A stretch of 64,000 nt of DNA from Streptomyces chattanoogensis (GTDB lineage: Bacteria > Actinomycetota > Actinomycetes > Streptomycetales > Streptomycetaceae): the NCBI RefSeq assembly GCF_001294335.1, contig NZ_LGKG01000196.1, positions 1-64,000 on the forward strand, in the 5' to 3' direction. The position numbers were made by a program, and so were the translations under genes. The notes beneath the pieces are model-generated. The model was not told the DNA's origin and did no database searches. It saw nothing but the letters and a program-made list of their open reading frames with translations. Positions within the stretch are counted from its first letter, which is position 1. The number at the start of each line of letters is the position of its first letter. Shown piece by piece: positions 3,761 through 30,385 of the stretch.

Positions 3761-5302
3761 ATGGCGGGCGATGTCATGCAGTCGTCCAAGAGAGCGCAGG
3801 CGAGCGAACACGTGCCGACGCAGTCCCCCGTCGCATCCGGGGCCCCCACCCACGGCCGCGGCCCCAGCCGTACCGATGCCGCACCCGACCTGGAGAAGCG
3901 GACGTCGGACGAGGTCACCGTCGTCGACCCCGCGATGGTCAGGCGAGCGGTGTCCGCGGCCGCCCTCGGCAATGCGATGGAGTGGTTCGACTTCGGCGTC
4001 TACAGCTACATCGCCGTCACCCTCGGGCATGTCTTCTTCCCCTCCGGCAACCCCACCGCGCAGCTGCTGTCGACCTTCGGTGCGTTCGCGGCGGCGTTCC
4101 TGGTCCGCCCGATCGGCGGCATGGTCTTCGGGCCGCTCGGCGACCGGATCGGGCGGCAGAAGGTCCTCGCGATCACCATGATCATGATGGCGGCGGGCAC
4201 CTTCGCCATCGGCCTGATCCCCTCCTACGCCACCATCGGCGTCGGTGCGCCGATTCTGCTGCTGGCCGCGCGCCTGGTGCAGGGCTTCTCCACCGGTGGT
4301 GAGTACGGTGGCGCGTCCACCTTCATCGCCGAGTACGCGCCCGACAAGAAGCGCGGTTTCCTCGGCAGCTGGCTGGAGTTCGGCACGCTGGCCGGTTACG
4401 TCGGCGGCGCCGGCCTGGTCACGCTGATGACCGCGCTGCTGTCCACCCACGATCTGCACGCGTGGGGCTGGCGGATTCCGTTCCTGATCGCGGGCCCGAT
4501 GGGCATCATCGGCCTCTACCTGCGGATGCGTCTCGAGGAGACCCCGGCCTTCGCCCGGCTGGAGAAGGAGGCGCGCACCAAGGAGAAGGAGCGCCGCGAG
4601 GCCGAGAAGCGGATCGGCGTCCGCGAGATGGTCTTCGGTCAGTGGCGGGCGATGCTGCTGTGCGTGGGGCTGGTCCTGGTCTTCAACGTCACCGACTACA
4701 TGCTGCTGTCGTACATGCCGAGCTATCTGACCTCGGAGCTGAAGTACGACGAGACGCATGGGCTGATGGTCGTGCTCGGCGTGATGGTCGTGATGATGGG
4801 CGTGCAGCCCTTCGCGGGCAGGCTGTCCGACCGCTTCGGCCGCCGCCCGGTCATCGCGGCGGGCTGCGCCGGCTTCCTGGTGCTGTCCGTTCCGGCGCTG
4901 CTGCTGATCCGCCAGGGCTCGCTGGCCGCCATCGCGCTGGGCATGGGTGCACTGGGCCTGCTGCTGGTGTGCTTCACCGCGGCGATGCCCTCCGCGCTGC
5001 CCGCGCTCTTCCCGACCAAGGTGCGCTACGGCTCGCTGTCGATCGGCTTCAACATCTCGGTCTCGCTGTTCGGCGGTACGACTCCCCTGGTGGTCACCGC
5101 GCTCATCGGGGCGACCGGCAACAAGATGATGCCCGCCTACTACATGATGGCGGCGGCCGTGATCGGCGGGATCGCCGTATGGCGGATGTCCGAGAGTGCG
5201 CGCAGGCCGCTGCCCGGTTCGCCGCCGGCCGTCGAGACCGAGGCGGAGGCCCGCGAGATCGTCCGCGCGTCCCGCGGCGCCGAAGCCGCATCGGCGGCCT
5301 GA
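3761..5302 (+). CDS. ProP-type MFS metabolite:H+ symporter
   Basis: The 513-residue protein has 12 predicted membrane helices and the signatures of the metabolite:H+ symporter family. These are GNAMEWFDFGVYSYIA at the first helix, GPLGDRIGRQK after helix 2, FSTGGEYGGAS in helix 4, and a second RLSDRFGRRP loop. Relatives such as ProP and ShiA import proline/betaine, shikimate, citrate or other carboxylates with protons. The exact substrate cannot be read. ProP's C-terminal coiled coil is absent; the tail is short and Glu/Ala-rich. The ATG at 3776 is an alternative start. Two hairpins follow directly, so it is probably monocistronic. Confidence 0.85.
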   Translation: MAGDVMQSSKRAQASEHVPTQSPVASGAPTHGRGPSRTDAAPDLEKRTSDEVTVVDPAMVRRAVSAAALGNAMEWFDFGVYSYIAVTLGHVFFPSGNPTAQLLSTFGAFAAAFLVRPIGGMVFGPLGDRIGRQKVLAITMIMMAAGTFAIGLIPSYATIGVGAPILLLAARLVQGFSTGGEYGGASTFIAEYAPDKKRGFLGSWLEFGTLAGYVGGAGLVTLMTALLSTHDLHAWGWRIPFLIAGPMGIIGLYLRMRLEETPAFARLEKEARTKEKERREAEKRIGVREMVFGQWRAMLLCVGLVLVFNVTDYMLLSYMPSYLTSELKYDETHGLMVVLGVMVVMMGVQPFAGRLSDRFGRRPVIAAGCAGFLVLSVPALLLIRQGSLAAIALGMGALGLLLVCFTAAMPSALPALFPTKVRYGSLSIGFNISVSLFGGTTPLVVTALIGATGNKMMPAYYMMAAAVIGGIAVWRMSESARRPLPGSPPAVETEAEAREIVRASRGAEAASAA

Positions 5303-5344
5303 GGCGGCCTGACGCCGCCTGACACGGCCTGAGGCGCCACTTGG

Positions 5345-5384
5345 GGCCGCCCCCTGGGGCGGCCTCACCGGCTCCGGCCGGTGA
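5345..5384 (+). terminator. double-hairpin terminator
   Basis: Two adjacent inverted repeats follow the MFS gene. One is 5345-5364 (GGCCGCCCC paired with GGGGCGGCC), the other 5365-5384 (TCACCGG paired with CCGGTGA). There is no U-run, as usual in Streptomyces. Just before them GGCCTGA units are repeated (5298-5335). Confidence 0.65.
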
Positions 5385-5479
5385 GGAACACGCCCGCAGG
5401 GGGAACCACAGGCACCGCCGCGCCCGTCTGTGACGCTGCCGATCACCGTGATCGGCACGTGGCGATCGGGGGACTGGGG

Positions 5480-6586
5480 ATGGGCGCGGCTTCGGCTCGG
5501 AATGTCCGGAGCATCCGGCGGCAGCAGGCGCTGCTGGTGGTGCTGATGCTGCTGGCCATGCAGCTGGTGGCGCTGGCCAGGCCGGCGTACGCCTGCGGCT
5601 GCGGTGCGATGGTCGTCGACCCGAAGACCACCATGTCGGTGGACCGGGAGACCTCGGCGGTGCACTGGGACGGCAGGACCGAGCAGATCGTGATGAGCCT
5701 GACGGTGCACGGTGACGCCCCGGATGCCGCCTGGATCATGCCGGTCCCGCACCGCGCCACGGTGAAACTGGGCGACAGGGCGCTGTTCGACGAGCTTGCC
5801 TCGCTCACGAAGCCGGTCGAGAAGGACCGCTCCTACTTCTGGCCGCACGGCGGCGACTGGCCCTTCCGGTGGAGCGACGGGGACACGGCCGGGGCCCCCG
5901 CACCCGGCGCCGCCGGCCCGGGCGTCGGCCTCGTCGGCCGGGAGCGCCTGGGCCCCTTCGATGTGGCCCGGCTGACCGCCACCGACCCCGACGCCCTGCG
6001 CGGCTGGCTGACGTCCCACGGCTTCCGGCTGCCGTCCTCGCTCGCGACCGGACTGCGCCCGTATGTGGCCCAGCACTGGGAATACGTCGCGATCCGGCTG
6101 GCCCCCGCCCAGAAGTACGGCTTCCTGAACGGCACCCTCGACCCGCTGCGGCTGTCCTTCGCCAGCGACCGCCTGGTCTACCCGATGCGGTTGTCCCGGC
6201 TCGCCACGACGCAGCAGTCGCTGGGTCTGTATGTGCTCGCACCGCACCGGATGGAGCCGCGCGGCGCCATCGGCGGTTCGGCGCCGGAGGTCTTCTTCGC
6301 GGGCCGGATCAAGACCGAGGGGACGCCGGTGAGCGCCCTTGCCGGTACCGGCGGGGCCTTTCTGACCGCCATCGACCAGCGCTTTCCGCATCCGGAGCGG
6401 ATCAGCGGCGATCATGAGCTGCGGCGGGCGGCCGCCGATACGCCGTATCGGCGGGTCCACTACACGGATGTGCTGATGAAGGCGGGCGGCGTACCCGTCT
6501 GGATTCTTGTGGTGGGCGGGGTGCTGCTGCTGGTGGTGATCGCGCTGACGGTGCGGCGGCGCAGGCGGGACGTCAGCGGGTCATGA
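5480..6586 (+). CDS. DUF2330 membrane-anchored protein
   Basis: From the ATG at 5480 (behind GGGGGACTGGGG) the product is 368 residues. It has an N-terminal signal peptide (hydrophobic residues 17-34, AYA then Cys39-Gly-Cys), an extracytoplasmic DUF2330 domain containing AAWIMPVPHRATVKLG, and one C-terminal transmembrane helix followed by RRRRRD. It should therefore be a type I membrane protein exposed outside the cell. The DUF2330 function is unknown. An in-frame ATG at 5381 lies within the preceding terminator and is less likely. Its stop codon sits directly next to the stop of the convergent AraC gene in the palindrome TCATGA. Confidence 0.75.
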   Translation: MGAASARNVRSIRRQQALLVVLMLLAMQLVALARPAYACGCGAMVVDPKTTMSVDRETSAVHWDGRTEQIVMSLTVHGDAPDAAWIMPVPHRATVKLGDRALFDELASLTKPVEKDRSYFWPHGGDWPFRWSDGDTAGAPAPGAAGPGVGLVGRERLGPFDVARLTATDPDALRGWLTSHGFRLPSSLATGLRPYVAQHWEYVAIRLAPAQKYGFLNGTLDPLRLSFASDRLVYPMRLSRLATTQQSLGLYVLAPHRMEPRGAIGGSAPEVFFAGRIKTEGTPVSALAGTGGAFLTAIDQRFPHPERISGDHELRRAAADTPYRRVHYTDVLMKAGGVPVWILVVGGVLLLVVIALTVRRRRRDVSGS

Positions 6587-7516
6587 CCTCGCCGGGCCGG
6601 GGCACTGCGTCACCGCCGCGGCCCGCCGGAACGCCCCCGGTGTGATGCCGAAGCAGCGGACGAACCAGCGGTGGAAGTGCGCCTGGTCGGCGAAGCCCGC
6701 CTCGGTGGCCGCCTCGGAGGCGGGGCGGCCACCGATGAGCAGCGTGCGGGCGTGGCGCAGGCGGAGCAGCCGCTGGTAGTCGCTGGGGGACATGCCGTAC
6801 GCGGCGCGGAACGCCCGGTAGAGCGCGAAGCGGCTGCATCCGGCGGCGTCGGCGAGGTCCTGGGCGGTGAGCGGCCGGCTGTAGGCGGCCCTCAGGAGGT
6901 CGCGTACCCGCCGGGCCGCCCTCGTCTGCGCACCGCCCGTCAGCTCCCGGGGCCCGGACCGGGCGGCACCCCTGGTGGCGTTGCGCCGCACCATGGCCTC
7001 GACGGCGGCGCCGAGCCGTTCCTCCCGTACGAGCGGGTCCGCGGCCCCGACCAGCGCGGGGTGCAGTCTGCGCAGCGCCCGCGCCAGCACCGGATCGTCG
7101 ACCACCGGCTGGGCGAAGAGCGGCATGCTGCCGCGGCCGTCGGTGACATCGTCGAGAACGTCGCGTACCACGTCGGGACCGATGTGCATGATCCGGTAGG
7201 TGAAGCCGAGGTCGACGGCCGCCTCCCCGTCGTGCGGGTCGTCCGGGTTGAACGCCATGACCATGCCGGCGGCGCTGGTGTGACCGGCGCCGCGGCAGGT
7301 GAAGCGCTGGGCGCCGGCCTCGGTGACGGCGAACGAGTAGGCGTCATGGCTGTGCGGGTGGAACACATGCCGGACGAAGTGCGCATGCATGGCCTCCAGG
7401 GGACGCTCCGGGTCGCGCCAGTACCGCGCCCAGTCGCCGCCGCCGGTGCCTCCGCGCTCCCGGGTGTCCCCATGCTCCCGGGCGTTCCCGGCGTCCCCGT
7501 CCCGCCTCCCGTTCAT
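6581..7516 (-). CDS. AraC-family transcriptional regulator
   Basis: The 311-residue protein has an N-terminal cupin-like sensing domain (HPHSHDAYSFAVTEAG) and a C-terminal pair of helix-turn-helix motifs. The second ends in the typical GFADQAHFHRWFVRCFGITPGAFRR. It is divergent from the DUF2000 gene with 68 bp between the starts, so it probably controls that gene. The chosen ATG at 7516 gives the usual family length; an upstream in-frame ATG at 7549 would cut into the shared promoter. The ligand is unknown. Confidence 0.85.
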   Translation of the reverse strand: MNGRRDGDAGNAREHGDTRERGGTGGGDWARYWRDPERPLEAMHAHFVRHVFHPHSHDAYSFAVTEAGAQRFTCRGAGHTSAAGMVMAFNPDDPHDGEAAVDLGFTYRIMHIGPDVVRDVLDDVTDGRGSMPLFAQPVVDDPVLARALRRLHPALVGAADPLVREERLGAAVEAMVRRNATRGAARSGPRELTGGAQTRAARRVRDLLRAAYSRPLTAQDLADAAGCSRFALYRAFRAAYGMSPSDYQRLLRLRHARTLLIGGRPASEAATEAGFADQAHFHRWFVRCFGITPGAFRRAAAVTQCPGPARS

Positions 7517-7584
7517 GCGCCCAGTGTGCCGCGCCGCACCAGCGTTCAATACGGCGGTCCGGATGCCGGACGAGACTCCCTGCC

Positions 7585-8070
7585 ATGACTACGCCGATCA
7601 CCAGCCCCGCTGTGACTCCCCCCGCCCTCGCGACCGCGCCCGCCGCCGGCCCCGGCCCCCGCTTCGGGACCAAGATCGCCGTAATCGTCCGCGAGGACCT
7701 CGCCGTGTGGCAGAAGCTCAACGTCACCGCCTTCCTGGCGAGCGGCATCGCCCATTCCTCCGACGACATCATGGGCAGGCACCGCTACGAGGACGCCTCG
7801 GGGAACGACTACCTGGCGCTGTTCCGCGAACCGGTGCTCTGCTTCACCGCCGACTCCGGCGCGCTGTCCCGTACCCACGCCCGCGCGCTCAGCCGCGCCG
7901 TGCCGACCGCCGTCTACACCACCGAGATGTTCCGCACCGGCAACGACGACGACAACCGCGCGTCGGTGCGGGCCGTGGCCGCCGGTGACCTCGATCTGGT
8001 GGGGCTCGCGGTGTACGGGCCGCGCAACACCATCGACAAGATCACCAAAGGCCTGAAGCTGCACGGGTGA
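7585..8070 (+). CDS. DUF2000 family protein
   Basis: The 161-residue protein has a low-complexity Ala/Pro N-terminus of about 25 residues and then a DUF2000 domain beginning GTKIAVIVREDLAVWQKLNVTAFLASG. Homologues are often encoded beside AraC-type regulators, as here. The fold resembles peptidyl-tRNA hydrolase 2-like proteins, but no catalytic role is established for the family. The first ATG after the divergent promoter was used as start. Confidence 0.75.
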   Translation: MTTPITSPAVTPPALATAPAAGPGPRFGTKIAVIVREDLAVWQKLNVTAFLASGIAHSSDDIMGRHRYEDASGNDYLALFREPVLCFTADSGALSRTHARALSRAVPTAVYTTEMFRTGNDDDNRASVRAVAAGDLDLVGLAVYGPRNTIDKITKGLKLHG

Positions 8071-8460: not shown

Positions 8461-8559
8461 GCGTACGGCGGTGGCGGGCGCCGCGCGGTGTCCGTCGCCG
8501 CCGACCGCGCCGCCGAAATCGCTTGCGTCCCGCTCCCCGGCCGCGGCGACAATGCGGCC

Positions 8560-9120
8560 ATGAGTCAGACCGCCGCCCTCCGCCTCCCCTGGACCGTTTC
8601 CGCCGAGCCTTGGGGTTCGCCCGATGCCCGGGCGCTGTTGCGGGACTACTACACCGAGGTCGCCGACCGCTACTTCGCGCTGCACGAAGGGCGGCGCGCG
8701 ACGCCCGAGGAGATCGCGGAAGGCCTGGCGGAGTATCCGGACGACCATCTGACGCCGCCTCATGGCGTGCTGCTGATCGCCCGGTACGACGATGCCGTCG
8801 CCGGCTGTGCCGGGGTACGGCTGCTGGACGAGCGGACCGCGGAGCTCAAGCAGATGTTCGTAAGGGTCCCCTACCGCGGCCGGGGCGGCGCGGGCGGACT
8901 GCTCACGGCCGCCGAGTCGGCCGCGGTCCGGATGGGTGCCGGGCGCATCCGGCTGGACACCCGGCTGGATCTGGTGGAGGCGATCGCGCTCTACCGGCGG
9001 CACGGCTTCACCGAGATCCCGCGGTACCACGACGACATCTATGCGGAGATCTTCTTCGAGAAGCGGCTCGGTGTCTTCGAGGAGCGGCTGGGTGTGTGCG
9101 AGGAGCGGCTCGGCGGGTGA
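8560..9120 (+). CDS. GNAT N-acetyltransferase
   Basis: The 186-residue protein carries a GCN5-related acetyltransferase fold. Motif A is LKQMFVRVPYRGRGGAGGLLTA (acetyl-CoA pyrophosphate loop RGRGGAG) and motif B is IRLDTRLDLVEAIALYRRHGF. The acceptor is unknown. The ATG at 8560 gives the normal family length; an upstream in-frame GTG at 8488 adds unrelated sequence. The last 20 residues are three heptad-like copies of E(K/E)RLGV(F/C), which ordinary family members lack. Confidence 0.8.
   Translation: MSQTAALRLPWTVSAEPWGSPDARALLRDYYTEVADRYFALHEGRRATPEEIAEGLAEYPDDHLTPPHGVLLIARYDDAVAGCAGVRLLDERTAELKQMFVRVPYRGRGGAGGLLTAAESAAVRMGAGRIRLDTRLDLVEAIALYRRHGFTEIPRYHDDIYAEIFFEKRLGVFEERLGVCEERLGG
9058..9117 (+). 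repeat. 21-bp tandem repeat in GNAT C-terminus
   Basis: Three in-frame copies (9058-9078, 9079-9099 and partial 9100-9117) encode EKRLGVF, EERLGVC and EERLGG. The heptad period suggests a short amphipathic helix added by slippage. Confidence 0.85.
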
Positions 9121-9131
9121 GTCCGGGCCGG

Positions 9132-9560
9132 CTATCCCTCGCCGCTCCGCAGCGGAGGTATGGAGATCAGCGGCTTGAAGTGGCCCTTGGGGTGGGGTTC
9201 GCCGACGGGTTCGCCGTCGGCTTCCACCCAGGCGTGGGCGGCGAAGGGATGGGTGCGTACGCCCGTGCACCAGGTGGGCCAGACGCCGCGTGTGCGGCAG
9301 AGCAGTGCGGTGGCGATGGAGCGTTGCAGACAGCCCTGACCGGCGCAGCGCAGGCTGACCGAGACGACCGCTGCGCGGGCCTCGAGGGCCTGGTCGGCGG
9401 TGGCCGGGGACGCGCCGCGGCGGGCGAATTCGAGGACGGTGCGCAGCCGGGCCGGTTTGGCCTTGGCGAGCAGGCGGGCGATGCCGACCGCCAGCAGCGG
9501 TACGAGCCGCCGGTGCAGGGGCAGTCGGCGTCGCTCGGCCAGCGCGACGGGCAGGCTCAC
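9132..9560 (-). CDS. lasso peptide B2 leader protease
   Basis: The 142-residue protein is the cysteine (transglutaminase-like) peptidase that cuts the leader from a lasso precursor. The Cys-His-Asp layout is visible: Cys77 in GCLQRS, His109 in AAHAWVE and Asp115 as the likely third residue. It is the stand-alone B2 form of the actinobacterial split B enzyme and needs the B1 protein to present the leader. Its start overlaps the B1 stop by 4 bp. It is the last gene of the operon and ends 11 bp from the convergent GNAT gene. Confidence 0.9.
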   Translation of the reverse strand: MSLPVALAERRRLPLHRRLVPLLAVGIARLLAKAKPARLRTVLEFARRGASPATADQALEARAAVVSVSLRCAGQGCLQRSIATALLCRTRGVWPTWCTGVRTHPFAAHAWVEADGEPVGEPHPKGHFKPLISIPPLRSGEG

Positions 9561-9808
9561 GCGATCACCAGTCCCGCGGTGCGGAGTTGGCCGATCACGG
9601 TGGTGACGTCCCGCTCGGCCCGGGACGGGTCTATCCGGTGCCGGGTCGCGACGCCGGCCGCGATGTCGTCGGGGCTGAGGCCGTCGAGGAGCCCGCGCAG
9701 CACATGGGCCCCGGTGGCGTTGAGCTGCCAGTAGCGCCCGGTGCGTCCGTTGAGCAGGACGGTGCCGTCGTCGGTGTCGGTGGAGACCACGTCAGGATGC
9801 AGACGCAT
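9557..9808 (-). CDS. lasso peptide B1, PqqD-like leader-binding protein
   Basis: The 83-residue protein is a PqqD-like RiPP recognition element. It has a winged-helix start (RLHPDVVSTDTDDGTVLLNGRTGRY), WQLNATGAHVL and a helical end. It binds the precursor leader and delivers it to the B2 protease. Its start lies inside the 3' end of the cyclase gene (17-bp overlap) and its end overlaps B2 by 4 bp, so the three proteins are translationally coupled. Confidence 0.9.
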   Translation of the reverse strand: MRLHPDVVSTDTDDGTVLLNGRTGRYWQLNATGAHVLRGLLDGLSPDDIAAGVATRHRIDPSRAERDVTTVIGQLRTAGLVIA

Positions 9809-11627
9809 GGGCGTCGAACCTCCAAGCAGGGGTGGGTCGGGTGGCGGCGCGCAGCCAGGTTTCGCAGCCGATCAGCGGTTCCAGGGCGATGCTCATGGCG
9901 TTGTCCGCCTGCGGGGCCAGCAGACGGGTGCGCAGTTCGCCGGGGTCGATCAGGCCGTGGGCGGCCAGCGCGGAGTCGTCGAACAGCTCCAGGATCGCGG
10001 GCAGGTTGCGGCGCAGGCCGGAGTTGGCCTCCTCGCTGAATTCGCCCTTGGTGGAGCGGCCCAGCACCGTTTCGGGCACGATGCCGCGCATCGCCTCGGC
10101 CAGCAGCGGCTTGTAGCGCCAGGGGCCGGAGTGCTCATGGACACGGACGCCCGCCACGGCTTCGACGACCCGGTCGTCGAAGAACGGCGAGTCGAGCTGC
10201 ACACCGGCCTCGGCGAACGGGCGGGCCAGCAGGCGGTACCAGGGGGCGCTGGTGCGCACCGCCAGGAGCAGCTGGTGCTGGCCGAGGTCGCGGGAGAGCG
10301 GGCGGGTGGTGTCCGCGGTGTGCCGCAGCACCTCCCGGGCCTCCGCGACGGCCGTGCCGGTGACGTAGGACGGGGCGCGCAGCGGCCACAGGCCCCAGCC
10401 CAGGCCGGGCCGGCGTTTGCGCAGCGGCGGGTCGGTGAGGTGATCGGCCTGCGCCCGCCACCATGACGCCTCGTCACCGGGGCGCACCAGCGAGGCCAGG
10501 GTGTGCAGCAGCGGCCAGCGTTCGAGCGCGGCATATCCGCGGACGTGCCGGAACGCGGCCACCGGATGGCGCCGCAGGAGACCGTGCAGATAGCCGGAGA
10601 ACGGGGTGAAGAGTTCGTCGCCGCCGTGGCCGGCCAGATGGCGGTGCGATCCCCGGTCGGCGAGCAGCCGTGCGGTGTGGTGCGTGCGCGCGGCGGTGCG
10701 GACGAAGGGGTAGGGCTCTTCGGTGTCCATCAGGACGTCCGCGTCGGCGTACAGCGCGGGGAGTTCGGCGGGCGGCACCACCACGTGGTCGGCCCGGTCG
10801 AGGGCGCCGATGGAGTGGGCGGCGAAGGCGGCGTCGTCGTTGCCCGCCTCGGCCTCGCCCCATCGGAACGTCAGGAGGTCCGGGACGCTGCGGGCGGCGA
10901 GAAAGCACAGGGAGGTGGAGTCCATGCCGCCGGACAGGTCCGTGCTCAGCCGGCCCTCGGCCGGTCCGCGGTCCTGCAGGGCGGAGGTGAGCGCCTCCCG
11001 TACGGCCCGTGCCCCGGCCGGCAGCGGCTGTTCGGGGGCCGGCGGCTGCCACCACCGTACGTCCCGGGTCCGTTCGCCGTCCCACAGCAGGTAGTGGTCC
11101 GGAGCCAGCGGGGTGACGCCCTTCCACAGGGGCCGGTCGCCGAGCGCCGGCGGGACGAGCCCTCCGCAGGCAAGCCGTACGGCCAGGGCGCGTTCGTCGA
11201 TTCCGGCGCCGGTCATCGCGGCCAGGACGTCGGCCCGGTCGGCGGCCACCGTCAGGCCGTTGACCCGGGTGTGGAACACCCGGCGCAGGCCGGTCAGGCT
11301 GCCCTGGACGCGCAGCCGGCCGTCGACGGAGGCGACCACGTGGCAGGAGCCGGGCAGCGCCGCCGCGAGGGTGTCCACATCGGACACCGTCCTTATCCGC
11401 GCGGTGAGTTCGGACAACCGCGTGGCGGTGACCGGGCAGACCCCGATCACCGCCACTCGTACCGGGCCCGCGGTGACCACCTGGATCTCTCCGGGCAGCC
11501 ACCGTCCCACCAGCCATGGACGCCCCGACGCATGCGAGTGCACCCGCGGAGCCGCCCAGGGCACCACCACGCGCGCCTCGGCTGCGGACGCCGTGTCCGG
11601 CAGGACCACGAACCCAGCACCGGTCAT
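9792..11627 (-). CDS. lasso peptide macrolactam synthetase (C protein)
   Basis: The 611-residue protein resembles asparagine synthetase B. It has a degenerate N-terminal glutaminase-like half and a C-terminal AMP-forming synthetase half with the pyrophosphate loop SGGMDS at residues 232-237. In lasso biosynthesis it adenylates the side-chain carboxylate of an Asp or Glu in the core and closes the ring onto the new N-terminal amine. No nucleophilic Cys2 is present, as expected for a cyclase that does not use glutamine. It starts 33 bp after the precursor stop and continues into B1. Confidence 0.92.
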   Translation of the reverse strand: MTGAGFVVLPDTASAAEARVVVPWAAPRVHSHASGRPWLVGRWLPGEIQVVTAGPVRVAVIGVCPVTATRLSELTARIRTVSDVDTLAAALPGSCHVVASVDGRLRVQGSLTGLRRVFHTRVNGLTVAADRADVLAAMTGAGIDERALAVRLACGGLVPPALGDRPLWKGVTPLAPDHYLLWDGERTRDVRWWQPPAPEQPLPAGARAVREALTSALQDRGPAEGRLSTDLSGGMDSTSLCFLAARSVPDLLTFRWGEAEAGNDDAAFAAHSIGALDRADHVVVPPAELPALYADADVLMDTEEPYPFVRTAARTHHTARLLADRGSHRHLAGHGGDELFTPFSGYLHGLLRRHPVAAFRHVRGYAALERWPLLHTLASLVRPGDEASWWRAQADHLTDPPLRKRRPGLGWGLWPLRAPSYVTGTAVAEAREVLRHTADTTRPLSRDLGQHQLLLAVRTSAPWYRLLARPFAEAGVQLDSPFFDDRVVEAVAGVRVHEHSGPWRYKPLLAEAMRGIVPETVLGRSTKGEFSEEANSGLRRNLPAILELFDDSALAAHGLIDPGELRTRLLAPQADNAMSIALEPLIGCETWLRAATRPTPAWRFDAHASAS

Positions 11628-11660
11628 CTCTGCTTGCTCCTGAGAGTCAGCCGTCGACGG

Positions 11661-11798
11661 TCAGCGGCCGCCGTAGTGGCCGAAGATGTCCTTGCCCCAG
11701 CCGATGAAGCCCAGCGTGTCCTCGCTGAACTCGCCGACCTCGACCAGCATCGGGGGCGCGTAGGGCTCTACGTTCGAGAGCTCGTTCTGCTCTTCCAT
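11661..11798 (-). CDS. anantin-like lasso peptide precursor
   Basis: The 45-residue precursor starts at the ATG at 11798, behind TGGAGG. The leader (residues 1-29) carries the YxxPxLxxxGxF recognition motif as Tyr13, Pro16, Leu18, Gly22 and Phe24. The conserved Thr28 is at position -2. The predicted core is GFIGWGKDIFGHYGGR (residues 30-45), with Gly1 to Asp8 forming an 8-residue ring and a tail of eight residues. From memory, anantin is GFIGWGNDIFGHYSGDF, and ulleungdin is a 15-residue relative with the same start as this core. The C-terminal Arg may be trimmed. An in-frame start at 11846 would only extend the leader and lies inside the upstream hairpin. Confidence 0.92.
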   Translation of the reverse strand: MEEQNELSNVEPYAPPMLVEVGEFSEDTLGFIGWGKDIFGHYGGR

Positions 11799-11817
11799 AA
11801 CAGCCTCCAACAGTACA

Positions 11818-11843
11818 AACCGGCAGTCATCCGACTGCCGGTT
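11818..11843 (-). promoter_or_regulatory. perfect inverted repeat before lasso precursor
   Basis: AACCGGCAGTC and its exact complement are separated by 4 bp, 20 bp upstream of the precursor ATG and just 5' of the ribosome-binding site. It could be an operator in DNA, or an 11-bp RNA hairpin in the leader that affects expression. The region further upstream (11845-11895) is unusually AT-rich and probably holds the promoter. Confidence 0.6.
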
Positions 11844-12045
11844 CACAAGTTAACACCCATACAAGGGACTTGATCGAACTTTTTTACGATCTAGCGGGTG
11901 ATGCCCGATCCGGACGGTTAGGTTCCAGGCCAATGCCGCTGGTGGAGGGGGTGATTGAGCGGCGGAAAGCCCCTTGTCGCCGGTGAACGGGAAACGTGTT
12001 TCTCACTCGGTGGGTTCCCGGTGGGTTCCCGCTGCCCGGCCACCG

Positions 12046-14124
12046 TCACTTCGGCACCCCGGGCGGCCGCGGCGTCCGGTGCGGTGTGCGGGCGACGGGC
12101 TGGCGGGCGTTGCCGTCGTGCGGCTCCTCCGCGTCGGATCCGCAGAGTTCGGCGGTCAGTTCGCGGACGATTTCGGTCAGGTCGGTGGGGCAGTCCTCGG
12201 TCCACCAGTCGCCCAGCAGTTCCGCCAGGGATTCCTGGCGCGCGTCGGAGAGCCGCCCGGCCGCCTCGCGTCCGCGGTCGGTGAGCAGCAGCATCAGGCC
12301 TTCGCGTGCGGCGAGGCCGCGCTCCTCGATCTGGCGGACGCCCTCGGAGATCACGCCGAGCGGCACATTGGTGCGTTCGACGAGCAGGGCCGGTTCCACC
12401 GATCCGTAATGCCGGATGCGCAGCAGCAGCCAGCTGGCGGCCGGTCTGAGGTCGAGGCCGGCCCGCGCGGTGATCTTCTCGTAGATGTGCTTGCGGCCTT
12501 CCATGCTGCCGAGCTTGGACAGGGCGCGGGCGCATTCGTCGCGCGAGGACCGCTCGACGGGGTTGGAGGAGACCACCTCGCTGGTCTCGGGAGCGGTGAC
12601 GCTGGCGCGCAGCGGCTCCTCCTTGAGGAACCAGGCCAGGGTGAAGGCGACGAGGACGACCGGGACCGCGTAGAGGAAGACGTCGGTGATGGAGACGGAG
12701 TAGGCGTCCAGGACGCGGGCAGCCGTTCCGGCCGGGAGCCGGGTGACGGTGCGCGGGTCCTCGGCGATCCTCGACGGGTCGACGCCGGGCGGCAGTTGCT
12801 GCCCGGCGAGGGCGTGGGCGATCCGCGGGCCGAGCTTGTTGGCGAAGACCGTGCCGAAGAGGGAGACGCCGAACGAGGCGCCGATGGAGCGGAAGAACGT
12901 GGCGCCGGAGGTGGCCACGCCGAGGTCCTGGTAGGGAACGGCGTTCTGCACGATGAGCACCAGGACCTGCATGACCAGGCCGAGCCCGAAACCGAAGACG
13001 AAGAAGTAGCCGCTCATCTCGGCGACGCTGCTGGCGGGGTCGAGCTGGTGCAGGAGCAGCAGGCCGAGGGTGACCACGGCGGTGCCGAGGACCGGGAAGA
13101 CCTTGTAGCGGCCGGTGCGGGAGACGATCTGCCCGGATGCTGTGGAGGAGAGCAGCATGCCGAGCACCATCGGCAGCATGTGCACACCGGACATGGTCGG
13201 CGAGACGCCCTGTACGACCTGCAGGAACGTCGGGAGATACGTCATCGAGCCGAACATCGCGAAGCCGATGACGAAGCCGATGACGGCGCAGAGGGTGAAG
13301 GTGCGCAGGGTGAACAGACGCAGGGGGAGGACGGGTTCGGCGGCCCGGCGCTCCACCAGGACGAACGCGCCCAGCAGAAGGACGCCCAGTACGCCGAATC
13401 CCACGATCTGCCAGGAGCTCCAGGGGTAGGTCACACCGCCGAGCGAGGTCATCAGCACGAAGCAGGCGGCCACGGCGGCGATCAGGGCGGTGCCCAGGTA
13501 GTCGATCCGGTGCGGGGTGCGGCGGCGCGGGATGTGCAGTACGGCGGCGATGACGGCCAGCGCGACGATGCCGACGGGGACGTTGATGTAGAAGACCCAG
13601 CGCCAGCTGAGGTGGTCGACGAACAGCCCGCCCAGCAGCGGTCCGAGGACGCTGGTACCGCCGAACACGGCGCCGAACAGGCCCTGGTACTTGCCGCGTT
13701 CCCGGGGCGGCACGATGTCGCCGACGATCGCCATCGACAGCACGATCAGGCCACCGCCGCCCAGCCCCTGGAGGGCCCGGAAGGCGATCAGCTGCGCCAT
13801 GTCCTGCGCGATACCGCAGAGCACCGAGCCGATCAGGAAGATCACGATCGCGGTCTGGAACAGCTTCTTGCGGCCGTACTGGTCGCCGAGTTTGCCCCAC
13901 AGCGGTGTCGCGGCCGTCGAGGCCAGGAGGTAGGCGGTGACCACCCAGGACAGATGGTCGAGGCCGCCCAGGTCGCTGACGATGGTGGGCAGCGCGGTGG
14001 CGACGATGGTCTGGTCGAGTGCCGCGATCAGCATGCCGAGCAGCAGCGCGCCGATCGCGACGAGGACCGTCCGCTGGGACCGGCCCGCACCGGGTATCGC
14101 CGGAGCGCTGGTGTCCTGCGCCAT
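12046..14124 (-). CDS. MFS drug exporter fused to MarR-like domain
   Basis: Residues 1-530 of this 692-residue protein form a DHA2-type 14-helix exporter ([19 protein letters not shown] in helix 1, LGDQYGRKK after helix 2, motif [13 protein letters not shown]). Residues about 531-665 form a winged-helix domain. Its recognition region reads [23 protein letters not shown], followed by a wing [16 protein letters not shown], as in MarR proteins. The fusion is long for DHA2 exporters (usually 480-540). It is encoded upstream of and in the same direction as the lasso operon (247 bp apart), so it is a candidate exporter or immunity protein. The link is positional only. Confidence 0.85.
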
Positions 14125-15338: not shown

Positions 15339-15379
15339 CGAGCCCTTCGGCTGACCGGGGGGGGTGGTTGTCGGCGCCC

Positions 15380-15416
15380 GGAACCGTTTTGTATCGTGTA
15401 GGAACAAAGTGGTTCC
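15380..15416 (+). promoter_or_regulatory. imperfect inverted repeat upstream of HAD gene
   Basis: GGAACCGTTTTGT (15380-15392) and AACAAAGTGGTTCC (15403-15416) form arms matching at about 11 of 13 positions with a 10-bp spacer, 110 bp before the HAD start. It is AT-rich against its surroundings, so it is a likely operator or promoter region. Confidence 0.45.
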
Positions 15417-15525
15417 GCCCGTTCTCCCTGACCGGCGGGCGGGACCGCATTGTGTCTTTCGGGACCGCCTGCGTCGTTCGCACGCAGCGCCGTCCCCTCC
15501 GCCTGTAGCGCCCAGGAGCCCGCCG

Positions 15526-16188
15526 ATGACGGCCACCACCACGCTCACCGCCCGCGCCCTGCTGCTGGACATGGACAGCACGATCGTGAACTCCGAGGCC
15601 GTCGTCGAGCGCTGCTGGCGCCGCTGGGCGGCCGAGCAGGGTCTGGACGCCGAGGAGGTCCTCAAGGTCGTCCACGGGCGGCAGGGCTGGGCCACCATGG
15701 CCGCGCTGCTCCCGGACCGCCCGATGGAGCTCAACCTGGCGGACAACCGCCGGATGCTGGCCCAGGAGACCGCCGACACGGACGGCGTCGTGCCGGTGCC
15801 GGGTGCGCCGGCCTTCATGGAGGCGATATCCCGCCTTCCGCACGCCCTGGTGACCTCCGCCGACGCCCCCCTGTCCGACGCCCGGATGCGCGCCGCCGGG
15901 CTCGCCATGCCGGTCGTACGGATCACCGCGGAGTGTGTGAGCGCCAGCAAGCCCGACCCGGAAGGGTTCCTGAAGGGGGCCGCGGAACTGGGCCACCGGC
16001 CCGAGGACTGCATCGTCTTCGAGGACTCCGAGGCGGGCATCTTGGCCGGCCGGGCGGCGGGGATGCGGGTCGTCGGGGTGGGCGACCGCGCCGCGGCGTT
16101 CGCGCCCACCGCCCACGTCCGCGACCTCACCCAGGTCCGCGTCGAGGCGCGGGCGGACGGCGTGATCGCGCTGCACATCGCGGCCTGA
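15526..16188 (+). CDS. HAD-superfamily sugar-phosphatase-like hydrolase
   Basis: The 220-residue protein is a class I haloacid-dehalogenase hydrolase with an alpha-helical cap. Motif I is LLLDMDSTIVNSE (nucleophile Asp15, acid/base Asp17), motif II Thr in LVTSADAPL, motif III Lys in SASKPDPEGF and motif IV FEDSEAGILA. This resembles phosphatases for small sugar phosphates such as 2-deoxyglucose-6-phosphate or glycerol phosphate. The ATG at 15526 follows CAGGAG. No adjacent pathway gene points to a substrate. Confidence 0.82.
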   Translation: MTATTTLTARALLLDMDSTIVNSEAVVERCWRRWAAEQGLDAEEVLKVVHGRQGWATMAALLPDRPMELNLADNRRMLAQETADTDGVVPVPGAPAFMEAISRLPHALVTSADAPLSDARMRAAGLAMPVVRITAECVSASKPDPEGFLKGAAELGHRPEDCIVFEDSEAGILAGRAAGMRVVGVGDRAAAFAPTAHVRDLTQVRVEARADGVIALHIAA

Positions 16189-16923: not shown

Positions 16924-17033
16924 GCCGAAGGTCTCGCTGGCGCGGTACGGCTGCGTACCGGGCTCCGGGCGCCGGCCATCCACGAGGGACAGCAGTATGT
17001 CGACGGTCCGGCGGAGAGCTACTCCCCTTCTGC
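16924..17033 (-). promoter_or_regulatory. yybP-ykoY manganese riboswitch
   Basis: On the minus strand the aptamer begins GCAGAAGG and continues with the conserved L1 sequence GGGAGTAGC. A TCGACATAC segment follows. Then comes a perfect hairpin, CGGTACG paired with CGTACCG. The L3 sequence GCCAGCGAGACC and the closing CCTTCGGC pair with GAAGG and GC at the 5' end (P1). This matches the yybP-ykoY family, which binds Mn2+ between L1 and L3. It ends about 75 bp before the TMEM165-type start. The expression platform was not resolved. Confidence 0.85.
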
Positions 17034-17840
17034 TGACGTCGAGGGTACGCGGTGGATCCGTCCGCGCGCGACCAGCTCCAGCACCACCGCACACGCCGCC
17101 GCCTGCACCGCCAGCAGCGCGACCAGCACGAACAGCTGCACCGCACCGGCCTGAACGGGCGAGGCGCCGCCCAGCAGCATCCCGACGAAGGCGCCGGGGA
17201 GTGTGACCAAGCCCACGGTCCTGGTCTGGTCCAGCCCCGGCAGCAGGGCGTCCGACGCGGCCGGGCGGGCCACTTCCATCCGCGCGTCCCGGTCCATCAG
17301 CCCGAGCGCGAGCCCCGCCTCGAACTCCCCCCGCCGGGTCTCCAGCTCGTCCAGCGCGCGCCGCCCGCCGAGAACGGTGGCGGTGAGCGCGCCGCCGATG
17401 AGGATGCCGGTGACGGGGATGAGGGTGAGGCCGCGGAGCGGGAGGAGGCCGGTGAGCAGCAGCAGACCGATGACCGGGGCGACCCCGACGGCGATCGGTA
17501 CGGCGGCCCACCACCAGGTGCGGTTCTGGGTGATCCGGCGGCCCGCGGTCCGTACCGCCACCGCAAACATCAGCACCAGGAAACACAGCAGCCACGGCAG
17601 CGCCCGCACCACCCAGCCGATGAGGTAGGAGACGGCGGCCAGCTGGGCGGCGGCGCGCAGACCCGCGACGGCGATGGCCCGGCCGTGGCCCAGGCGGGCC
17701 ACGGCGGCGACGGCCACGGCGACGGCCAACAGGACGGCGAGGACGACTCCGAGGGTGACGTTGACCGGCAGCAGCACGCGCTCACTGTAGGGGGGCGGAT
17801 GCGCCGGTATGTCCCAACCGGACTGCCCCGCCACACTCAT
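17019..17840 (-). CDS. FetB-like ABC transporter permease
   Basis: The 273-residue protein has seven hydrophobic segments and the FetB/YbbM signatures VTGILIGGALTATVLG, ALLPGLDQTRTVGLVTLPGAFVGMLLGGASP and a Gln in the final helix pair. FetAB exports iron in E. coli. No FetA ATPase gene is adjacent, so the ATPase must be encoded elsewhere or the gene is an orphan. Its last two codons and stop (GGG GAG TAG) lie inside the conserved L1 loop of the Mn riboswitch. The ATG at 17840 is used; a GTG near 17778 would also leave the first helix intact. Confidence 0.75.
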   Translation of the reverse strand: MSVAGQSGWDIPAHPPPYSERVLLPVNVTLGVVLAVLLAVAVAVAAVARLGHGRAIAVAGLRAAAQLAAVSYLIGWVVRALPWLLCFLVLMFAVAVRTAGRRITQNRTWWWAAVPIAVGVAPVIGLLLLTGLLPLRGLTLIPVTGILIGGALTATVLGGRRALDELETRRGEFEAGLALGLMDRDARMEVARPAASDALLPGLDQTRTVGLVTLPGAFVGMLLGGASPVQAGAVQLFVLVALLAVQAAACAVVLELVARGRIHRVPSTSAEGE

Positions 17841-29239: not shown

Positions 29240-30385
29240 GTGCTGGAGCGTGACCGCCGGATGGCCCTGTCCACCGATACCCCGAGCCCGACCACCCCTG
29301 CTTCCCCTGCTTCCCCGACTTTCCGCTGGCGCCGGCAGGACACCGTCCGCACCGCCGGCCTGATGGCCGTCATAGCCGGCCTGCACGTCATCGCCTTCGG
29401 CGTGCTCTTCCTGCTCGTCGTCCCGTATCACTACTCCGTCGGAAGCCAGGTCTTCGGCGTCGGGCTCGGCATCACCGCCTACACCCTCGGCATGCGGCAC
29501 GCCTTCGACGCCGACCACATCGCCGCCATCGACAACACCACCCGCAAGCTGATGGCCGACGGCAAACGGCCGGTCTCGGTGGGCTTCTGGTTCGCCCTCG
29601 GCCACTCCAGCGTGGTCGTCGTGATGGCGGCCCTGGTGGCGGGCGGCGCCCAGCTCGCCGGCACCCTCCTCAACGACGCGTCCCGCACCCACCAGGTCCT
29701 CGGCACCATCGGCACGACGGTCTCGGGGACGTTCCTCTACCTCATCGCCGCCCTCAACCTCATCGCGCTGGCCGGGATCTGGCGGGTCTTCCGCGGTATG
29801 CGCGACGGCAACTACGACGAGGCCGAACTGGAGCAGCGGCTCGATGCGCGCGGCTTCATGAACCGCTTCCTGGGACGCTTCACCCGCTCCATCTCCCGCC
29901 CCGGCCAGATGTTCCCGCTCGGCTTCCTCTTCGGGCTCGGCTTCGACACCGCGACCGAGGTGACGCTGATGGTGATGGCGGGCAGCGGCGCCGCGGCCGG
30001 TGTGCCCTGGTACGCGATCCTGTGCCTGCCGCTGCTGTTCGCCGCCGGAATGAGCCTCTTCGACACCCTCGACGGCACCTTCATGAACTTCGCCTACCAG
30101 TGGGCGTTCTCCAACCCGGTGCGCAAGGTCTACTACAACCTCACCATCACCGGCCTGTCGATCGCCGTCGCGTTCTTCATCGGCACGATCGAGCTGGTGA
30201 CCGTGCTGCACGACAAACTCGCCCTCGACGACCCCCTGACCGGCTGGATCTCCTCCATCGACCTCGACAACGCGGGCTTCGTCCTCGTCGGCCTGTTCGT
30301 GGTGGTGTGGGCGGCCGCGCTGGCGTACTGGCGCCTGTCCGGAGTCGAAAAGCGCTGGGCGGCGCGAGGGGCGTCGGGCTCGTAG
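29240..30385 (+). CDS. NiCoT-family cobalt/nickel permease
   Basis: The 381-residue protein is an eight-helix transition-metal permease of the HoxN/NixA family. The signature RHAFDADHIAAIDN (residues 86-99, His-x4-Asp-His) is intact, as are LGHSSVVV and GLGFDTATEV. It imports Co2+ and/or Ni2+ with high affinity. The B12 riboswitch indicates that cobalt for cobalamin synthesis is the main cargo. The start is uncertain: GTG 29240, or ATG 29261 with GGAG 13 nt upstream. Confidence 0.92.
   Translation: MLERDRRMALSTDTPSPTTPASPASPTFRWRRQDTVRTAGLMAVIAGLHVIAFGVLFLLVVPYHYSVGSQVFGVGLGITAYTLGMRHAFDADHIAAIDNTTRKLMADGKRPVSVGFWFALGHSSVVVVMAALVAGGAQLAGTLLNDASRTHQVLGTIGTTVSGTFLYLIAALNLIALAGIWRVFRGMRDGNYDEAELEQRLDARGFMNRFLGRFTRSISRPGQMFPLGFLFGLGFDTATEVTLMVMAGSGAAAGVPWYAILCLPLLFAAGMSLFDTLDGTFMNFAYQWAFSNPVRKVYYNLTITGLSIAVAFFIGTIELVTVLHDKLALDDPLTGWISSIDLDNAGFVLVGLFVVVWAAALAYWRLSGVEKRWAARGASGS

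Follow-up and report, generated by a model that had tools for sequence, protein, structure and literature searches.

Ulleungdin and anantin are lasso peptides that a review table lists as GFIGWGKDIFGHYGG and GFIGWGNDIFGHYSGDF, respectively (PMC12427821). For ulleungdin, a calculated [M+2H]2+ of 796.8859 and a found value of 796.8835 have been given, and strain ID38640, which has a cluster whose predicted core is identical to it, was reported to make the peptide (PMC7955054). Two genome papers on further strains list ulleungdin-type clusters on the basis of similarity (PMC12424369, PMC12163732), and the peptide has been described as an inhibitor of A549 cell invasion and migration (PMC7549694, PMC6636559). 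In this study, we analyzed the first 64,000 nucleotides of contig NZ_LGKG01000196.1 of Streptomyces chattanoogensis (hereafter the window, meaning this whole stretch), which is part of a 410-kb contig in a genome of 9.13 Mb and 217 contigs. Four open genes in the order A-C-B1-B2 occupy positions 9132-11798 of its minus strand. We read them, with a probability of roughly 0.9, as an ulleungdin-type class II lasso operon with a 16-residue product, whose last residue, Arg16, is possibly trimmed to leave ulleungdin. Most of the core is already known, and the part that is new in our sample is Arg16, a one-codon insertion.

The operon and its predicted core

The four genes were assigned by family searches. 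Gene A exceeded the cut-off of the lasso leader model NF033521 (32.4 bits, cut-off 19) and had no match in Pfam; C matched Asn_synthase (PF00733, E 1.6e-37); B1 matched PqqD in Pfam (E 3.4e-15) and NF033530 lasso_PqqD_Strm (106.7 bits, cut-off 70); and B2 matched Transglut_core3 (E 8.7e-31) and NF033537 lasso_biosyn_B2 (121.8 bits, cut-off 33). A precursor with the Y..P.L...G.F leader motif and Thr at -2, proteins of the B1 and B2 families and an asparagine-synthetase-like cyclase C, the gene-level features by which a lasso cluster is recognized, are all present. The 17-base overlap of C with B1 and the start of B2 on the B1 stop give an arrangement resembling a translationally coupled operon. 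A scan of 9000-12100 for promoters and terminators returned none (0.1 and 0.7 expected), and the cluster had no Rfam match at the gathering score.

The precursor of 45 residues starts at the ATG at 11798, behind a GGAGG, and its codons 1-44 align without gaps with those of relatives sharing the same start position. A longer in-frame version from the GTG at 11846 was rejected, the upstream frames mostly differing among relatives; the short upstream stretch common to the window and S. nigrescens is the stem-loop treated below. The leader, read from the sequence, has Thr at -2 and contains YAPPMLVEVGEF, which matches the pattern Y..P.L...G.F. The core is predicted to close into a Gly1-Asp8 macrolactam, and the calculated [M+2H]2+ values are 796.8859 for the dehydrated 15-mer and 874.9364 for the dehydrated 16-mer. 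Since the former equals the published value to four decimals and the table sequence agrees, the first 15 core residues are those of ulleungdin; the window core continues past the Gly15 at which ulleungdin ends, with Arg16 encoded. Anantin differs at positions 7, 14 and 16, and its position 17 is missing here. A text search of the literature for GFIGWGKDIFGHY and GFIGWG, with most subscription literature outside its scope, matched only in a review that holds the 15-mer.

These results bear out much of an earlier note on this DNA, made by a model from the letters and open reading frames. It had described four intact biosynthetic genes, and all frames are open, with A, B1 and B2 above the NCBIfam cut-offs and C assigned by PF00733; the leader motif and Thr(-2) that it reported are both kept by the start at 11798. 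Its prediction of the macrolactam ring appears right. The ulleungdin and anantin sequences that it gave agree with the review table, as do the three differences from anantin that it named (Lys7, Gly14 and a C-terminal Arg), and its suggestion that the 15-mer would match ulleungdin is confirmed by the table sequence and the calculated mass.

Relatives, tail variation and the origin of Arg16

The search for precursor relatives covered 392 genomes from the same genus as the window (E up to 0.001). Matches were found in 20 genomes, five of which, the window included, had the GFIGWG-DIFGHY core; a DNA pattern for the core occurred in 4 of 395 relatives, again with the window included, in a sample overlapping that of the precursor search. 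A scan of named-species genomes gave 23 related loci, eight of them with this core, and three of these eight were already in the genus sample. Counting each locus once leaves ten loci with the GFIGWG-DIFGHY core, and the A-C-B1-B2 order is conserved in the relatives. The tail past Tyr13 is the variable part of the family. Four loci (S. piniterrae, NRRL S-337, S. nigrescens HEK616 and genome G064) have a GG tail, a 15-mer followed by the stop, and consequently would yield ulleungdin without a trimming step. The remaining tails are GGGF in S. echinatus, SGGF in S. paradoxus, S. tibetensis and S. massasporeus, SGDF in S. olindensis, and GGR in the window alone (1/10 loci). Five protein clusters of the same core type, built at 90% identity so that other members may differ and some may represent the same genomes as the loci, had representatives ending in GG, SGGF, DGS, SGGF and SGGF (the last with Trp2); none of the five carried Arg16. 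Arg16 is rare in this sample of ten loci and five clusters. A tblastn search with the 45-residue precursor (E up to 1e-3) found no match in 72,556 plasmid records.

Two other precursors were noted besides. P0135 of Streptomyces tricolor has an S. echinatus-like leader and diverges after GEFN, with a core region that by eye looks frameshifted. P0137 of Streptomyces sp. NPDC021096 is of the chaxapeptin type and ends in GLNFR, where P0133 has V and P0134 has F as its last residue.

Comparison of the window with S. piniterrae gave a ratio of non-synonymous to synonymous rates (dN/dS) of 0.06 for codons 1-44 of A (4 synonymous differences and 1 non-synonymous), 0.27 for C and 0.29 for B1. These values indicate purifying selection on A, C and B1, and such low ratios argue that the preservation of the cluster is not chance. 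The C motifs SGGMDS, GHGGDE and TKGEF were invariant in 10/10 sequences, and the stretches SPFFDD and WRYKPLL had one variable position each. B2 was invariant in 9/9 over RTHPFAAHAWVE and over the 22 residues surrounding the Cys; the gene caller did not pick B1 of L032 or B2 of L036, and these two rows are absent from the alignments.

The tail of the window reads GGC GGC CGC TGA and that of S. piniterrae GGC GGC TGA, with the sequence after the stop still alignable. A maximum-likelihood tree of 11 cyclases placed these two as sisters (99/97) and united the five F-ending, anantin-type tails in one supported group (99/98). Arg16 is probably derived, most simply through one insertion on the branch leading to the window. 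Short contigs of another source carry a cyclase (P0010) with 99% identity to the window's C, and Arg16 may extend beyond the window genome. Judged by sequence, ulleungdin is the nearest known product, not anantin; anantin as the parent was rejected on core identity and the cyclase tree. Here the earlier note needs correction, as it had called the cluster anantin-like, and the window is sister to S. piniterrae, an exact encoder of the 15-mer. Its claim of a new core variant is borne out for Arg16, which is new in our sample, and not for the rest of the core, which was already known. The coordinates of the features are collected in Table 1.

Table 1. Features of the lasso operon in the window (all on the minus strand)
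Feature	Position	Strand	Description	Basis or remark
Gene A	11661..11798	-	45-aa lasso precursor, leader MEEQNELSNVEPYAPPMLVEVGEFSEDTL, core GFIGWGKDIFGHYGGR, stop TGA	NF033521 above cut-off
Gene C	9792..11627	-	611-aa macrolactam synthetase, asparagine-synthase fold	Pfam, NCBIfam, motifs
Gene B1	9557..9808	-	83-aa RRE/PqqD-like leader-binding protein	17-base overlap with C
Gene B2	9132..9560	-	142-aa transglutaminase-like leader peptidase	GTG start overlaps B1 stop
Arg16 codon CGC	11664..11666	-	In-frame 3-base insertion vs S. piniterrae	Absent in four GG-tailed relatives
Dyad/stem-loop AACCGGCAGTC-GGAT-GACTGCCGGTT	11818..11843	-	5' of the A ribosome-binding site	Paired changes in relatives
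GGAGG, Shine-Dalgarno-like	11804..11808	-	5 bases ahead of ATG	

Proposed product and alternative explanations

The genes, their homology and motifs, the codon insertion and the fit with the published sequence and mass of ulleungdin suggest a course of threading, cleavage, cyclization, trimming and export. B1 would bind the leader and B2 would cut after Leu(-1), and C would use ATP to activate Asp8 and link it to the Gly1 amino group, closing the ring around the pre-threaded tail. The immediate product would be a 16-residue lasso, ulleungdin plus Arg16 ([M+2H]2+ 874.9364), from which a general carboxypeptidase might remove Arg16 partly or fully to give ulleungdin (796.8859), and either a general transporter or one encoded elsewhere might carry out the export. 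The strain may finally make the 16-mer, ulleungdin or a mixture of the two.

Several points weigh against this reading. The lasso product of the window strain is predicted from its genes, and Arg16 is seen in one assembled genome. The best NCBIfam match of C is the albusnodin/ikarugamycin cyclase model NF033561, at 260.4 bits below its cut-off of 300. In the cyclase tree, the window pair joins the NRRL S-337/S. nigrescens pair at 85/91 only, and the deepest fork is open. In addition, residues added to lasso tails typically lower the yield, so the 16-mer might be made poorly, and some lassos tolerate such additions well (PMC13352647).

A narrower version of the ulleungdin-type reading, and in fact a sub-case of it, is that a cellular or secreted carboxypeptidase always removes Arg16, before or after cyclization, so that the end product is simply ulleungdin and the added codon leaves no trace in it; we give this somewhat less than an even chance. 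Three M14 carboxypeptidase matches were found in the strain's own genome, one of them with two internal stops. The strongest is a 447-residue protein whose residues 117-439 match carboxypeptidase T of the PDB (1obr, E 1.5e-127) and which has, by eye, a signal-like N-terminal segment. Carboxypeptidase T accepts basic residues, and this carboxypeptidase-T-like enzyme could be a candidate remover of Arg16; its gene sits on another contig. Endogenous carboxypeptidases are reported to trim lasso tails (PMC13352647), but threaded lassos are often carboxypeptidase-resistant (PMC5974421, PMC13352647). The trimming to ulleungdin considered in the earlier note gains a candidate enzyme in this way and is unneeded in the four loci that encode the 15-mer themselves. 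The PAD family of arginine deimination (PF03068) had no match in the strain's own genome, a result of no weight either way, since the control set was equally silent.

The remaining alternatives concern the neighborhood and the state of the cluster. A GNAT gene (8488-9120) lies 11 bases beyond the end of B2, and in the published ulleungdin cluster B2 is likewise followed by a gene for an acetyltransferase (PMC9266682), so a tailored lasso might be supposed in which the GNAT acetylates Lys7, as albT acts on Lys10 of albusnodin. The acetyltransferase within the cluster that marks the albusnodin type is, however, not what is seen here: the gene is convergent with B2 and so falls outside the operon, and it was unmatched at 1e-4 in 13 stretches from 10 relatives' loci. 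Moreover, acetylated ulleungdin was undetected according to the same review (PMC9266682). We give this explanation hardly any credence. A decayed or silent cluster, in which Arg16 marks a step of the decay, is also quite unlikely in our estimate. The insertion was seen once in the sample and the related precursor P0135 looks frameshifted, but all frames of the window cluster are open, the catalytic motifs are invariant, dN/dS is low (0.06 in the precursor, less than 0.3 in C and in B1), and the ribosome-binding site and upstream stem-loop are kept.

Stem-loop, neighboring genes and known systems

The RNA fold of 11780-11860 had a z of -3.4, and 0/200 shuffles were as stable. Aligning the ten loci led to a predicted helix of 7 pairs at this site, with 95.7% of cells paired, all 7 pairs in seven rows and 6 pairs in three. 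Three pairs had changes on both sides, and slid versions were lower on every measure; for one locus (L033) our scan favored a different register. The covariation score was reached by 1/500 shuffles and the weaker measures more often (pairs with both-sided changes by 46/500, further pair types by 166/500), and related sequences can beat shuffles without any structure. Among 15 distant lasso loci (L037-L051), in which the match start is not always the gene start, three of Streptacidiphilus (L039, L041, L043) had a stem of 7-12 pairs with a 4-base loop and another sequence, 30-34 bases before the match start; in the other 12 the stems were shorter or elsewhere. The stem-loop may be wider than the ulleungdin/anantin-type subfamily, or partly an effect of G+C-rich DNA.

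A role of the palindrome as an operator shared by a regulon was rejected. With up to 3 mismatches it had 40 genome sites per strand (one exact, before A, one with 2 mismatches and 38 with 3), there was no other exact copy in the genome, and the reversed palindrome used as a control had more sites (97 per strand). The dyad could act as an mRNA element or as a local operator, and the G-U pairs in several rows make us lean to RNA. A bolder joint proposal goes further, namely that Arg16 yields a lasso of 16 residues that is distinct and stable, with a positive charge at its tail end and changed activity, and that the stem-loop is an undescribed mRNA element governing synthesis of the precursor, perhaps common to a wider range of lasso clusters; we consider this combination improbable.

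A, C, B1 and B2 are the only genes common to the window and the relatives' loci. Ten flanking genes of the window had no match at 1e-4 in the 13 stretches, two of which stop shortly past B2 and are short on the downstream side. The GNAT as a tailoring gene was rejected as a conserved part on this ground, and so was a dedicated exporter encoded at 12046-14124; either may still act in an unlinked role. The latter gene, upstream of A on the same strand, encodes a DHA2-type MFS efflux protein of 692 residues, which exceeds the TIGR00711 cut-off and extends at its C-terminus about 190 residues past the family matches. Ten neighbor proteins of four relatives were scanned. They comprised pyridoxal synthase, YebC, glycosyltransferase and acyltransferase genes and one without family in S. 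tibetensis, a dehydrogenase and a HEPN-domain protein in S. piniterrae, and a sigma factor in NRRL S-337 and S. nigrescens; no transporter was found among the ten. In agreement with the earlier note, a scan of 19 window proteins revealed no ABC peptide exporter; it took in every called gene between 2193 and 17840 apart from 15364-16188, and four others. The gene at 17019-17840 encodes a UPF0014 protein, which we take to be the permease of an iron ABC exporter. Snou-LP, from a lasso cluster without transporter genes, was expressed in Streptomyces (PMC5974421).

Some further observations were made on the same genome. A cobalamin riboswitch (RF00174, 29010-29229) stands directly 5' of a NicO-type nickel/cobalt transporter gene (29240-30385). 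A second lasso cluster was found on contig C207 (locus L063, about 4950-7650) with the predicted core LLSKHGNDRVIFSKN, presumably citrulassin-like; frames of 616 and 84 residues stand, by position, at the places of C and B1, and a B2 lies at C207:53278-53646. Two more B2 matches occur on contigs C2 and C101, where a motif scan gave no clear precursor.

The window adds one natural tail variant to ulleungdin. The natural tails GG, GGR, GGGF, SGGF, SGDF and DGS on a near-constant ring and loop of 13 residues form a ready series for studying the ring-plug residue and the role of the tail end. Among the known systems, albusnodin comes near in two respects, the sub-threshold match of C to the albusnodin/ikarugamycin cyclase model and the presence of a GNAT nearby; its core, however, is unrelated, and the window GNAT lies outside the operon and was not found beside the relatives' clusters. 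Peptides of the chaxapeptin/sungsanpin type share the leader motif, and P0137 of that type also ends in Arg, whereas they differ in ring and loop sequence (GFGSKPLDSFGLN-). Anantin shares the GFIGWG-DIFGHY frame, the ring size and, in anantin-type loci, the gene order; in contrast, the window has Lys7 for Asn7, Gly14 for Ser14, Arg16 for Asp16 and no Phe17, and the F-ending cores form their separate group in the cyclase tree. Ulleungdin of Streptomyces sp. KCB13F003, also of ID38640, was compared by its published peptide sequence and m/z and by the relatives' loci. It is alike in residues 1-15 and in the predicted Gly1-Asp8 ring and is encoded by relatives with the same A-C-B1-B2 order, and the window differs from it in adding Arg16 through a 3-base insertion before the stop.

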